From Ectobacillus sp. JY-23 (GTDB lineage Bacteria > Bacillota > Bacilli > Bacillales > Bacillaceae_G), in the NCBI RefSeq assembly GCF_023022965.1, contig NZ_CP095462.1, positions 2,708,001-2,772,000 on the forward strand: DNA of 64,000 nt, in the 5' to 3' direction. Position 1 is the stretch's first letter, and every line of letters starts with the position of its first letter. Made by a program: the position numbers and the translations under genes. Below are positions 33,366 through 45,545 of this stretch, piece by piece. A model generated the notes under the pieces. It had not been told where the DNA came from, ran no database searches, and worked only from the letters and a program-made list of their open reading frames with translations.

Positions 33366-35723
33366 ATGACTGGGTTCTACATGTTAGGTGTTTATTTGCT
33401 TTCCATTACAAGTTGTTTTGTTATTATTAAGCTACGAATGAATTATGAAAACAAACGAGAAAAAAATAAAGCGATATGGGGGCCAGTATTATTAACCCTC
33501 CTTTTTTGGTGCATTCATATATTAACCGTCTTATCGCTCGGATTACCTCTTTCTGTAAATCCTATCACGTATTTTGTCATTAGCTTAGTTATGGGCGGAT
33601 TTATGGTATGGGTTGTTTTACATTTGGCCTATAGTATGTTTTTAACTCATGTTCGATTTCTTACGGCCGTTCTTGCTGTATCCACATATATGTTTGTAAG
33701 TCATTATGTTACCTCTTTATTTGTATATGAAACGTTTGTTGATATTAAGCCATTGCAGCTGATGATGGCATTCACATTAACATTAGCCTATATTTATGCC
33801 GGGCTTCGTTATTTAATTGAATTGGGGCGCTCTGCATCGTTAAAAAATATATATATTTGGAAAGTGTCAGGTTCACTACTAGGTGGTATTGTCATGGCGG
33901 GTATTCCTTATGTGACATTTTTAGCAATTATAGAAACGGAAGAACCGTTTATCGGCTTGCGGGAAGCAAGCTTTATACCTTATTACATACAGATTGTGTT
34001 CGTATTCTTATTGAATCTTGTTCCTGACTTAATGAGAGAAGAGACTGTGAGAGAGCAAGAGACACGAATTACAGATAATCAAAATAATCAACAACTGTTG
34101 TTTGATAACCATCCAGAGCCAGTATTTGTATTGAGTAGAGATGGTATATTTGAACAAGTGAACGAAGCTTTTGAACAATTTACGAGGCGACCTAAACAGA
34201 AGATTATAGGTAGTCACTTTGGAAACTTTATATGCGGGGAAGTAAAGCAGCAATTTGAACAGCTGTTTAAGAGTACAATAGAAGGTGGTGCTCATCATAA
34301 AGAGCTGCAAATTGAAAGGCAGGATACTTACAAGTTAGATGTATTGGTTACGACGATTCCTGTAGTTGTAGAAGGTAAAACAACAGGGGTATATGGCATT
34401 GTAAAAGATGTGACAGAAGCCAAAAAGGTCGAAGCAACCTTTCAAAGGTATGCCTATCAGGACGAACTAACATTGCTTCCCAATCGCCGCTCTTTTCTAA
34501 ACAAGCTACGAAACTTAGAAGAAAGTACGGCTCCATATGCCATCATGTTTATTGATATGGATAGCTTCAAAAAATTGAATGACTTGTTTGGACATTCATT
34601 TGGTGATCAAATTATTCAAGCTTTTGCCGGACGTATAGCTAAACTTTTACAAGGTAAACATGTATTTTCACGTATTGCCGGAGATGAATTTACAGTATTG
34701 ATACAAGAAGGGCTAGAAGAAGAATTATTATGTCAGTTAGCACAAGACATTATTAATTCCACGAAAGAGCCATTTTATTTAGCGGGTAAAGAATGCTATG
34801 TAACAGCAAGTATCGGCATAGCGATGTATCCAAAGCATGCAGGTGCAGCATCCATAGTGATGAAGTATGCCGATGCGGCTATGTATCATGCGAAAAAGAA
34901 GGGGCGTAATAACTTCCAAATTTATAATGAAACTATCCGTGAAAATACAGAAATGCAGTTAACGCTGGAAAATGATTTACGAAGAGCAATCAGCCTTGGA
35001 GAACTTACACTGCACTACCAGCCTAAATTACATGCATTATCAAATGAAGTGATTGGTTTGGAAGCATTGGTACGCTGGAAGCATCCTAGTCTCGGTATGA
35101 TTGCGCCAGGAAAGTTTATTTCGATAGCTGAAGAAACAGGTCTTATTGTAGCGCTGGAGCGCTGGGTCATGAAGGAGGTTTGCCGTCAAATTATCCGATT
35201 TGAACAAGAGGGTGTTGTGCCGCCACGCATTGCCTTTAATTTATCCACTCGTCATATCTGCCAAGAAGATATTGTATTATTTATCCAAGAGTTATTAGAG
35301 CAAACATGGGTTAACCCTAACTTATTAGAAATCGAAATTACGGAAAGTTTGTTTATGGAAAATACAAATCAAGCAATTGAAAAGTTACAAGTATTGAAAG
35401 ACATGGGCATTCGTATTAGCATGGATGACTTTGGCACTGGATTCAGTTCGTTAAGTTATTTGAAGTCTTTACCTCTAAACTGCATGAAAATTGATCAGTC
35501 CTTTGTTCGCGATGTAACAAGTGATGAGAATAGTAAAGCGATTGTTGCGATGATTATTTCTATGGCAAACTTATTGCAATTTGATGTAGTAGCAGAAGGG
35601 GTTGAAACACAGGAGCAATTGGAGTGCTTAATTAATCTTCATTGTCATCAAGTGCAAGGATATTATTTTAGTAAACCGTTACCTGTAGATGAAGTACAGC
35701 TATTTTTACGAAAAGCATCGTAG
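33366..35723 (+). CDS. Membrane PAS-GGDEF-EAL protein with MHYT-like sensor (YkoW-type)
   Basis: This 785-aa c-di-GMP enzyme has seven predicted membrane helices in residues 1-225, a PAS domain (about 240-355), a GGDEF domain and a C-terminal EAL domain. The cyclase signature is AGDEF at 438-442, a variant. The phosphodiesterase motifs look intact: EAL at 566-568, NLSTRH, EIEITES, DDFGTG, KIDQSFV and EGVET. The seven-helix region has IHILTV, SHYVTS and IPYVTF where MHYT domains carry Met-His-Tyr-Thr motifs, so it looks like a degenerate MHYT sensor of the B. subtilis YkoW architecture. Net c-di-GMP breakdown is the simplest guess. AAGGAG precedes the ATG. Confidence 0.88.
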   Translation: MTGFYMLGVYLLSITSCFVIIKLRMNYENKREKNKAIWGPVLLTLLFWCIHILTVLSLGLPLSVNPITYFVISLVMGGFMVWVVLHLAYSMFLTHVRFLTAVLAVSTYMFVSHYVTSLFVYETFVDIKPLQLMMAFTLTLAYIYAGLRYLIELGRSASLKNIYIWKVSGSLLGGIVMAGIPYVTFLAIIETEEPFIGLREASFIPYYIQIVFVFLLNLVPDLMREETVREQETRITDNQNNQQLLFDNHPEPVFVLSRDGIFEQVNEAFEQFTRRPKQKIIGSHFGNFICGEVKQQFEQLFKSTIEGGAHHKELQIERQDTYKLDVLVTTIPVVVEGKTTGVYGIVKDVTEAKKVEATFQRYAYQDELTLLPNRRSFLNKLRNLEESTAPYAIMFIDMDSFKKLNDLFGHSFGDQIIQAFAGRIAKLLQGKHVFSRIAGDEFTVLIQEGLEEELLCQLAQDIINSTKEPFYLAGKECYVTASIGIAMYPKHAGAASIVMKYADAAMYHAKKKGRNNFQIYNETIRENTEMQLTLENDLRRAISLGELTLHYQPKLHALSNEVIGLEALVRWKHPSLGMIAPGKFISIAEETGLIVALERWVMKEVCRQIIRFEQEGVVPPRIAFNLSTRHICQEDIVLFIQELLEQTWVNPNLLEIEITESLFMENTNQAIEKLQVLKDMGIRISMDDFGTGFSSLSYLKSLPLNCMKIDQSFVRDVTSDENSKAIVAMIISMANLLQFDVVAEGVETQEQLECLINLHCHQVQGYYFSKPLPVDEVQLFLRKAS

Positions 35724-35995: not shown

Positions 35996-36811
35996 TTACT
36001 GCGCAATAACTACTTGATTGCGACCTTGTGCTTTGGCTTGGTATAAAGCTTCATCAGCTTGATGAATGAAGTGTGTAGTAGAGCTACGAGCATATTTTGC
36101 GACACCTGCACTGATTGTAATAGGGATATGTTTACCTTTATGTGTAAAATGGGCATTAGAAACTGCTATTCGAATTCGTTCTGCAATCTGTAGGCATTCC
36201 TTTGTTGTAGTTTCCGGAACTAACACAACAAACTCTTCTCCTCCTATACGAACCAAGCCATCCGAAGCTCTAATATTATCTTGTATGATGCCTGCGACCT
36301 GCTTTAAAATATTGTCTCCGGCTGAATGGCCATATGTATCATTCACTGCTTTAAAATAATCGATGTCAATAAGAATGATGTGAAGTGGGATGCCGATTTT
36401 ATTACTGAGCGGAATGGTTTTTTCCATATAAAAATCAAAATATCTGCGATTGTATACACCCGTTAACTGATCTATCAATGTCAGTTCTCTTGTTTCACGT
36501 AACGCCCGGTTGTATTGAATTTTACAATAAGCAACGGTGAATAGAACAGAGTGGTTCGTAATCGTTCCAACCATAAATTCAATGAGCATATCTCGAGATA
36601 TATCCTGCGATATAAAAGCAAACGAATATTTTACAGTGCTGAGGAAAAAAGCAACTAACACCGCTACCCTCCAACTCGGAAAAGCAGCAATAAGTAAAAT
36701 ACCGGGTAAAATCATAAGAGACCAAATTGCATTATAGGGAAATAACGAATATAAAAACAGAGGCGAGAGAACGGTAATAGGGATTAAGAATAATAGTATT
36801 TTCTTATTCAT
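35996..36811 (-). CDS. Membrane diguanylate cyclase (GGEEF) under a c-di-GMP riboswitch
   Basis: This 271-aa protein has about four membrane helices in residues 1-100 and a C-terminal GGDEF domain. The active site is GGEEF at 190-194, and the inhibitory RxxD I-site (RASD, 181-184) lies five residues before it. It should therefore synthesise c-di-GMP from two GTP and be subject to product inhibition. Substrate-binding residues in IDYFKAVNDTYGHSAGD are conserved. A c-di-GMP-I riboswitch immediately precedes its ribosome binding site (AAAGGAAG), adding feedback at expression level. What the membrane region senses is unknown. Confidence 0.93.
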   Translation of the reverse strand: MNKKILLFLIPITVLSPLFLYSLFPYNAIWSLMILPGILLIAAFPSWRVAVLVAFFLSTVKYSFAFISQDISRDMLIEFMVGTITNHSVLFTVAYCKIQYNRALRETRELTLIDQLTGVYNRRYFDFYMEKTIPLSNKIGIPLHIILIDIDYFKAVNDTYGHSAGDNILKQVAGIIQDNIRASDGLVRIGGEEFVVLVPETTTKECLQIAERIRIAVSNAHFTHKGKHIPITISAGVAKYARSSTTHFIHQADEALYQAKAQGRNQVVIAQ

Positions 36812-36825
36812 TGCAACTTCCTTTC

Positions 36826-36903
36826 GACAACCAAGCTATCATAGCGTTTCCGCCTTAGACCATAGGCTTTGCGTCCCTATCTTTCAACAGGTTTGCCCTT
36901 TTC
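36826..36903 (-). ncRNA. Cyclic di-GMP-I (GEMM) riboswitch
   Basis: On the minus strand the leader reads GGGCAAACC, a stem capped by GAAA, the invariant core GGGACGCAAAGCC, CTAAGGCGGAAACGC, then GGTTGTC pairing back to GGGCAAACC. This is the GEMM-I layout: P1, GNRA-capped P2, core, P3. Its 3' end is only a few nucleotides from the AAAGGAAG ribosome binding site, and no intrinsic terminator intervenes, so control of translation is more likely than attenuation. Confidence 0.92.
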
Positions 36904-36972
36904 GTAGGATGATTTTGTAACTTAATATTACTAAATCGAGATATTCATTTCAACGAAAATGAACAATATAAG

Positions 36973-42842: not shown

Positions 42843-43594
42843 CAGGTCTCGTCGTGCAATGTATGATATCAATCCTTATTCCCATCTTTGTGTACGTGTT
42901 TATGAAAAAGAAATATAAAATCTCATTTCGTCCGGTGTTGGTGGGGGCAGCTATTTTTATAGGGTTTGTATTAATTCTTGAAGGCGCATTGAATGCTTAT
43001 GTACTGCATGTTAATGAAACCACAGCAAAAATTACGGAACATCCTTATTGGTTTACCTTGTATGGATCGCTGATGGCAGGTGTGTTTGAAGAGGTTGGAA
43101 GGTTTATCGCATTTACCTATCTGTTAAAAGTGTATCGAGACCGAAAAGATGGTCTTGCCTTTGGTCTGGGACATGGAGGAATTGAAGCTATTATCATTGG
43201 CGGCATGACAGCAATTCAAAGTATTGTATATGCGCAGCTGCTCAATACAGGAAAATTAGAAAGCGCGTTTGGTCAGCTTCCACCAGAAGCTTTACAAGGA
43301 ATAAAAGATTCTTTACTAGATTTAACCTTTGTCTCAGGCGTTATGGGTGGTGCGGAGCGTATCGCAGCGCTTGTCCTTCAGATTGCTCTTTCTATCTTAG
43401 TTTTATATGCAGTGAAAGAGAAGAAATTCAGTTATGTTATGTTAGCCATATTTCTGCATACCCTTGTTGATTATATTGTGTTCTTGCATCGAACAATCGG
43501 GTTATCTCTCATGGTTGTAGAAGTATTTTTATTGATAGTAGCGATATGTTCTTATATTTTCATAAAAAGAAGTAAATCTTTATTTAATATATAA
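42821..43594 (+). CDS. YhfC-family glutamic-type intramembrane protease
   Basis: This 257-aa protein has about seven membrane helices. The family motifs EEVGRF, GLGHGGIEA and FLHTLVDY supply Glu and His residues inside helices, as in the PrsW/CPBP group. Proteolytic function is inferred from the family, not shown. Translation begins 22 bp inside the hydrolase gene. Confidence 0.82.
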   Translation: MVSQSAIAGLVVQCMISILIPIFVYVFMKKKYKISFRPVLVGAAIFIGFVLILEGALNAYVLHVNETTAKITEHPYWFTLYGSLMAGVFEEVGRFIAFTYLLKVYRDRKDGLAFGLGHGGIEAIIIGGMTAIQSIVYAQLLNTGKLESAFGQLPPEALQGIKDSLLDLTFVSGVMGGAERIAALVLQIALSILVLYAVKEKKFSYVMLAIFLHTLVDYIVFLHRTIGLSLMVVEVFLLIVAICSYIFIKRSKSLFNI

Positions 43595-43810
43595 GTACAA
43601 CTAGAAAAACCGACATTCTTTTTTGGGTGGGAAAGAAGAACGGGCAATGTATGGTGGCGGTCAGTGCCTAAGAGATACACGTGTCAAGTAAGAACATACA
43701 CATGTAGCGAGGGGTTCTGTAGCCGTGATTTTCTTGCTGTTTATATTTCGAAAAAACCATGTAGACTTATATAGTAGTGTGAGGCTGGGATATAACTAGC
43801 TTCTACAAAT
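43595..43810. other. Non-coding stretch after the yhfC-like gene
   Basis: No ORF or clear structure was seen. It contains GTGAGGCTGGGATATAAC near 43780, which may be a worn repeat edge. Confidence 0.35.
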
Positions 43811-45281: not shown

Positions 45282-45545
45282 AAAAAAGCTCGCCCCTATA
45301 ATAGGGACGAGCTTGACTCGCGATACCACCCTAGTTCCGTAAAATGAATACGGCCCTCAACAACGTACAAACATACGTGATCCTAGTAACGGAGGACATC
45401 CGGCAAAGCCTAGCCTACTTATCCCTTCAGCTTTGCACCTCAAAGATGATTTTCACACAAGCTTTGTACATCAGCTTTCACCAGTCGCTGACTCTCTGGG
45501 GAACAAAATTCTTGGCTACTCGTTCTTATCATTGGCTGTTGAACT
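45282..45545 (-). ncRNA. T-box riboswitch, probably Ile-specific, of brnQ
   Basis: On the minus strand there is the AGTA-type specifier-loop motif and AGAGAG..GGTGAAA distal stem I. The specifier strand reads GTGAAA-ATC-A (ATC at 45450-45448), followed by stem III (CCGTA..TACGG). The T-box core AGGGTGGTATCGCG is at 45332-45319, where TACCGCG is more usual. The terminator (45282-45315) pairs AAGCTCGTCCC with GGGGCGAGCTT and ends in a U-run. UGGU would accept a tRNA with discriminator A. The ATC assignment is by motif position, not folding. Confidence 0.92.

Follow-up and report, generated by a model that had tools for sequence, protein, structure and literature searches.

A c-di-GMP-I riboswitch with the Shine-Dalgarno sequence in helix P1 suggests translational OFF control of an I-site-bearing diguanylate cyclase in Ectobacillus

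Locus and question

Can the product of a diguanylate cyclase restrain both the translation and the activity of its own enzyme, and in which direction would the RNA part of such a circuit act? This question is raised by a locus in the window, the whole 64,000-nucleotide stretch of DNA that we analyzed, which comes from an Ectobacillus genome (3.89 Mb, one contig) placed in the genus by its closest match, E. antri. On the minus strand, a promoter-like site is followed by a c-di-GMP-I (GEMM-I) aptamer, 11 bases, and the ATG of a predicted cyclase gene at 36811. The features are as follows.

36925 to 36953, minus strand: putative sigma-A-like promoter, TTGAAA-17-TAATAT (9 of 12 consensus matches; identical in E. 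antri)
36903 to 36909, minus strand: 5' strand of helix P1, UCCUACG, predicted to act as an anti-Shine-Dalgarno sequence by pairing with 36826 to 36819
36823 to 36907, minus strand: c-di-GMP-I aptamer with P2, P3, and binding pocket (full-length RF01051 match)
36827, minus strand: U at the position of C92 in Vc2 (Rfam alignment; E. antri has U too)
36819 to 36826, minus strand: 3' strand of P1, CGAAAGGA, containing the Shine-Dalgarno sequence (from the sequence and fold calculations)
35996 to 36811, minus strand: predicted membrane-anchored diguanylate cyclase of 271 amino acids (PF00990, hydropathy, and PleD as best PDB match)
36260 to 36271, minus strand: I-site RASD, residues 181 to 184 (aligned with RAID of PleD)

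A full-length aptamer lies directly ahead of the cyclase gene

Rfam cmscan returned an RF01051 match on the minus strand from 36907 to 36823 that covers model positions 1 to 87 and scores 81.6 bits against a curated cutoff of 35 bits (E value of 1.7e-14 over the window). Besides this covariance match, the Rfam alignment revealed the GNRA tetraloop (GAAA), the GACGCAAAG core, and G20 (at 36897), and a P1 helix is present; the one class feature considered that the aptamer lacks is C92. By its membership in this class, the RNA is predicted to bind and sense c-di-GMP. These results bear out an earlier sequence-only reading that placed a c-di-GMP-I riboswitch close before the cyclase gene, but its aptamer start at 36903 must be corrected, as the Rfam match begins at 36907 and P1 extends to 36909.

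We detected no terminator-like site between the aptamer and the cyclase ATG on scanning the leader sequence, and the sole terminator nearby is a strong one belonging to the upstream nupC-like gene. The absence of a terminator that had been claimed was thus confirmed for the 11-base gap, and we rejected terminator-type control of this leader. The close spacing together with the lack of a terminator supports the translational type of control that had been proposed. Since the strong terminator closes the nupC-like neighbor, the riboswitch-cyclase unit looks monocistronic. Transcription would be expected to start near 36918, as judged from the promoter-like site, which we regard as suggestive only because shuffled controls gave 1.2 equally good sites by chance in the region.

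The cyclase retains catalytic and I-site motifs

The predicted protein has a hydrophobic N terminus (about residues 1 to 67 by hydropathy) and a GGDEF domain at residues 112 to 266 (Pfam PF00990, 160.8 bits). The catalytic signature GGEEF (residues 190 to 194) and the metal- and substrate-binding motifs DIDYFKAVND (FKxxND) and GHSAGD (GHxxGD) are intact, as in diguanylate cyclases with GG[DE]EF signatures, and the protein is predicted from these residues to make c-di-GMP. In the PDB, the cyclase domain was most similar to PleD of Caulobacter, which likewise combines GGEEF with an RxxD I-site, although the alignment covers the GGDEF part only; PleD is a response regulator and not a membrane protein. 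The RASD motif lies exactly five residues upstream of GGEEF, at the PleD I-site position, and so upholds the inhibitory site previously claimed. Through this motif, the cyclase appears to be open to inhibition by c-di-GMP. Among the approximately 14 GGDEF proteins of the genome with a readable motif, only 3 have RxxD at this position. Identity as a Hypr (cGAMP-making) enzyme is not supported: GHSAGD has the Asp found in canonical GGDEF domains in place of Ser or Thr.

The Shine-Dalgarno sequence is part of P1

In the GEMM-I fold, the two aptamer flanks form P1 and the ligand lies at the P1/P2/P3 junction (PMC4744006). With numbering anchored on G20 and position 93, P1 of the cyclase leader consists of two pairs (G14-C93 and C13-G94), a 1x2 internal loop, and four further pairs (U11-A97, C10-G98, C9-G99, and U8-A100). 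The Shine-Dalgarno (SD) sequence AAAGGA, at 36824 to 36819 and 7 nt ahead of the ATG, lies within CGAAAGGA. The riboswitch had been described as sitting before the ribosome binding site; the two are indeed closely adjacent, but the SD is not separate from the aptamer, being located inside the P1 helix. Across Bacillales aptamers, P1 as a helix is supported by an observed mean of 7.9 versus 5.0 +/- 0.34 for shuffled sequences (permutation test, n = 112, with related sequences counted and two loci misoriented or anchored only weakly). For the cyclase gene, the two near-identical species provide no P1 covariation.

ViennaRNA calculations indicated that the four P1-paired SD bases are largely free in the free ensemble (0.71 to 0.79 unpaired), less so with P2/P3 imposed (0.11 to 0.31), and hardly at all with P2/P3 plus P1 imposed (0 to 0.07). 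The aptamer-plus-P1 ensemble cost about 2.5 to 4 kcal/mol, a value that varies with the length folded and comes from nearest-neighbor folding, which takes no account of the pocket, Mg2+, or the ribosome. Because ligand binding could pay this cost, binding should close the SD, as in an OFF switch. Several points weigh against this model. Shuffled 5' flanks concealed the SD equally well in 9% of trials, which puts pairing between P1 and the SD just moderately above the chance level; P1 is interrupted by its internal loop; and the free SD also pairs downstream when longer coding sequence is folded.

Since the SD makes up the 3' strand of P1, we assign the sign of the switch as OFF with moderate confidence. 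The sequence-only reading had called the sign not evident, but the position of the SD allows an assignment. We consider the opposite sign unlikely. In a translational ON switch, c-di-GMP would raise expression of its own cyclase, resulting in positive feedback and bistability. Class I switches can be ON, as with Bc3-5 of B. thuringiensis (PMC4759541) and according to statements on Bc2 (PMC6366702), and the sinI leader of the same genome looks ON (see below), but no stretch of the aptamer 3' strand in the cyclase leader complements the SD, and we found no strong anti-SD in this leader other than the P1 5' strand, which ligand would stabilize.

An OFF assignment has precedent in Vc2, which has been described as switching translation OFF according to the stability of P1 (PMC9262584). 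Vc2 (Vibrio cholerae, VC1722 leader) shares the aptamer class and P1-governed OFF behavior with the OFF switch proposed here, whereas it has C92 where the cyclase leader has U, and in the latter the 3' strand of P1 is formed by the SD itself. The gene downstream of Vc2 is presumably not a cyclase. Bc3-5 (B. thuringiensis) and Cd1 (C. difficile) are Firmicutes members of the same class that work via transcription terminators, unlike the cyclase leader. A leader in another Bacillales genome (locus L208, genome G361) likewise has an SD, AAAGGAG, beside P1 and directly before the gene for a membrane PAS-GGDEF protein, but it keeps C92, and its protein has another sensor domain, no RxxD I-site, and a TTG start; SD occlusion in this leader was equal to, not above, that of shuffled controls.

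The ligand-pairing base is altered

In Vc2, C92 pairs with one guanine of c-di-GMP; the cyclase leader has U at this position. In the best-scoring Bacillales sample, position 92 was C in 109 of 112 aptamers and U in 3, two of which belong to the present gene, in this genome and in E. antri. A further U92 aptamer was found at L196, and U92 is independent in L113 and L196, both high scoring. As C92 is a less conserved position (PMC9049102) and U occurs in other high-scoring members, U92 does not exclude GEMM-I membership. In a docking and simulation study, mutants of G20/C92 bound less tightly, with a raised Kd (PMC9049102), and G20A/C92U shifts Vc2 toward c-di-AMP (PMC7288161, PMC9049102). In the cyclase leader, U92 probably lowers affinity for c-di-GMP, and the simplest expectation is a higher c-di-GMP threshold. 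Natural variants at position 92 reportedly still bind c-di-GMP usefully, as Smith and colleagues are said to have found (Biochemistry, 2010).

Three further readings of U92 were weighed. U92 binding might be too weak in the cell, leaving a decayed or nearly blind sensor and a leader that is a fixed, partly closed UTR. The rarity of U92 in the Bacillales sample and the weaker binding of simulated mutants (PMC9049102) point in this direction, but the aptamer scores well at every other conserved position (81.6 bits), U92 occurs independently in high-scoring L113 and L196, and the leader is near-identical in two species, which together make a blind sensor improbable in our judgment. The variants said to retain binding also speak against it. 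About as doubtful is a retuned aptamer that responds at far higher c-di-GMP levels or to another cyclic dinucleotide, e.g., 3',3'-cGAMP; if true, it would give an I-site-bearing cyclase an overflow brake or an input from another signal. A specific change of ligand, with U92 pairing with adenine so that the aptamer prefers 3',3'-cGAMP, is very unlikely. GEMM-Ib aptamers offer an analogy, preferring 3',3'-cGAMP through another position, and the G20A/C92U results indicate that position 92 helps set specificity (PMC7288161, PMC9049102). However, G20 is retained, the cyclase keeps Asp where Hypr cGAMP makers carry Ser (PMC6456294), and Ser was found at that position in 0 of the GGDEF proteins read in the genome; we disfavor cGAMP because of the retained G20 and the canonical Asp.

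Conservation and occurrence in Bacillales

The E. antri cyclase has 96% protein identity and a matching leader, and the surrounding neighborhood is conserved over about 6.3 kb; the transcribed leader is identical save one base, inside the aptamer. Among 19 family genomes, none of the 17 others contained a cyclase orthologue, and the next-best match in the genome collection, from Neobacillus (L006, 44%), showed no riboswitch when the 200 bases upstream of its start were examined by eye.

Convergent with the cyclase gene, a gene at 33366 to 35723 (plus strand) encodes a PAS-GGDEF-EAL protein with AGDEF in place of GGDEF, no I-site, and a strong EAL domain, which is probably a phosphodiesterase. 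In E. antri, an intergenic insert lies between the cyclase and GGDEF-EAL genes. It is absent from the corresponding place here, and a stretch at 43588 to 43778 that matches it at 83% is perhaps a dispersed repeat. The window also contains a T-box leader (45300 to 45541, minus strand; RF00230, 136.9 bits).

Genes following c-di-GMP-I aptamers in Bacillales encoded GGDEF proteins in 9, EAL proteins in 8, and SinI in 13 of 108 cases, a rough and probably low tally, as stretches were cut and first-gene calls were heuristic. Riboswitch control of c-di-GMP enzymes has been called rare in a review (PMC6366702); ahead of GGDEF genes, riboswitches are uncommon but recurrent in Bacillales. In Bacillus methanolicus MGA3, a c-di-GMP riboswitch likewise precedes an operon for c-di-GMP turnover (BMMGA3_04760-04765; PMC4342826). 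Genes for c-di-GMP enzymes behind riboswitches mostly have T-rich, terminator-like leaders. A stricter pattern search for leaders with the SD in P1 gave only the two Ectobacillus matches and two CGCAAGGA matches, and none of the other readable aptamer-following GGDEF genes in the Bacillales survey has RxxD at the I-site position. Each part of the cyclase unit is known; the combination of an I-site, a riboswitch with the SD in P1, and U92 is uncommon. Separately, stand-alone EAL proteins are encoded behind c-di-GMP-I riboswitches at seven loci in several Bacillales genomes (L087, L088, L139, L155, L174, L180, and L183), with several leaders being terminator-like.

A predicted sinI switch of the opposite sign

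The second strong riboswitch of the genome (L002, C1:1918928-1919012, minus strand) precedes sinI, which encodes a biofilm anti-repressor. Its leader carries GGTAGC at the SD, which is paired by GCTGCC from the aptamer. Folded freely, this leader keeps its SD closed, and imposing the aptamer makes the SD more accessible, the reverse of the cyclase leader. In these fold calculations, the sinI riboswitch looks to be ON-type. This arrangement is shared by many Bacillales: we observed sinI directly behind a riboswitch also at L116, L122, L111, L113, L144, L145, L165, L173, and L182. Several of these leaders have a hairpin between the aptamer 3' end and the SD (e.g., CCTGAAATAC...GTATTTTAGG), and translational ON control is predicted on this basis. 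We found one earlier report of a c-di-GMP riboswitch before sinI, in B. methanolicus (PMC4342826).

We counted 18 GGDEF and 12 EAL domain matches in the genome and none to a PilZ domain, and RNA sensors may thus be a main output, with c-di-GMP outputs leaning on riboswitches. A weak aptamer match (L004, C1:2964346-2964427, plus strand; 34.5 bits, just below the cutoff) is followed by a T-rich stretch and then a PAS-PAS-GGDEF-EAL gene, which may encode a second c-di-GMP enzyme under riboswitch control here. In Ectobacillus genome G002, c-di-GMP-I riboswitches precede two small Spo0E-like genes (L105, confirmed by PF09388, and L117, by resemblance); such targets would link c-di-GMP to sporulation control.

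A model of two nested brakes

Taken together, we favor as likely that the riboswitch turns translation of the diguanylate cyclase OFF and, with the I-site, forms a nested negative feedback. At low c-di-GMP, P1 need not be held, AAAGGA would be largely free, and the cyclase would be made. At high c-di-GMP, ligand at the three-way junction would stabilize P1, sequester the SD, and block initiation, with U92 probably raising the concentration needed, while cyclase already made would be slowed by c-di-GMP at RASD. The I-site would be a fast, local brake on activity, and the riboswitch a slower brake on translation that responds to the whole-cell pool. Because the genome encodes many GGDEF proteins, up to 17 other GGDEF domains may feed the pool that the riboswitch would sense, while the I-site would act on its own enzyme only. 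The earlier proposal that the product may act on both synthesis and activity of its enzyme is accordingly supported by the riboswitch and I-site sequences, with the regulation itself predicted from them.

Paired with an ON-type sinI riboswitch, an OFF-type cyclase riboswitch would form a coherent circuit in this organism. The locus presents a compact, testable case in which a product would control both the translation and the activity of its own enzyme, with a sign that can be predicted from sequence and a natural change at the ligand-pairing base.
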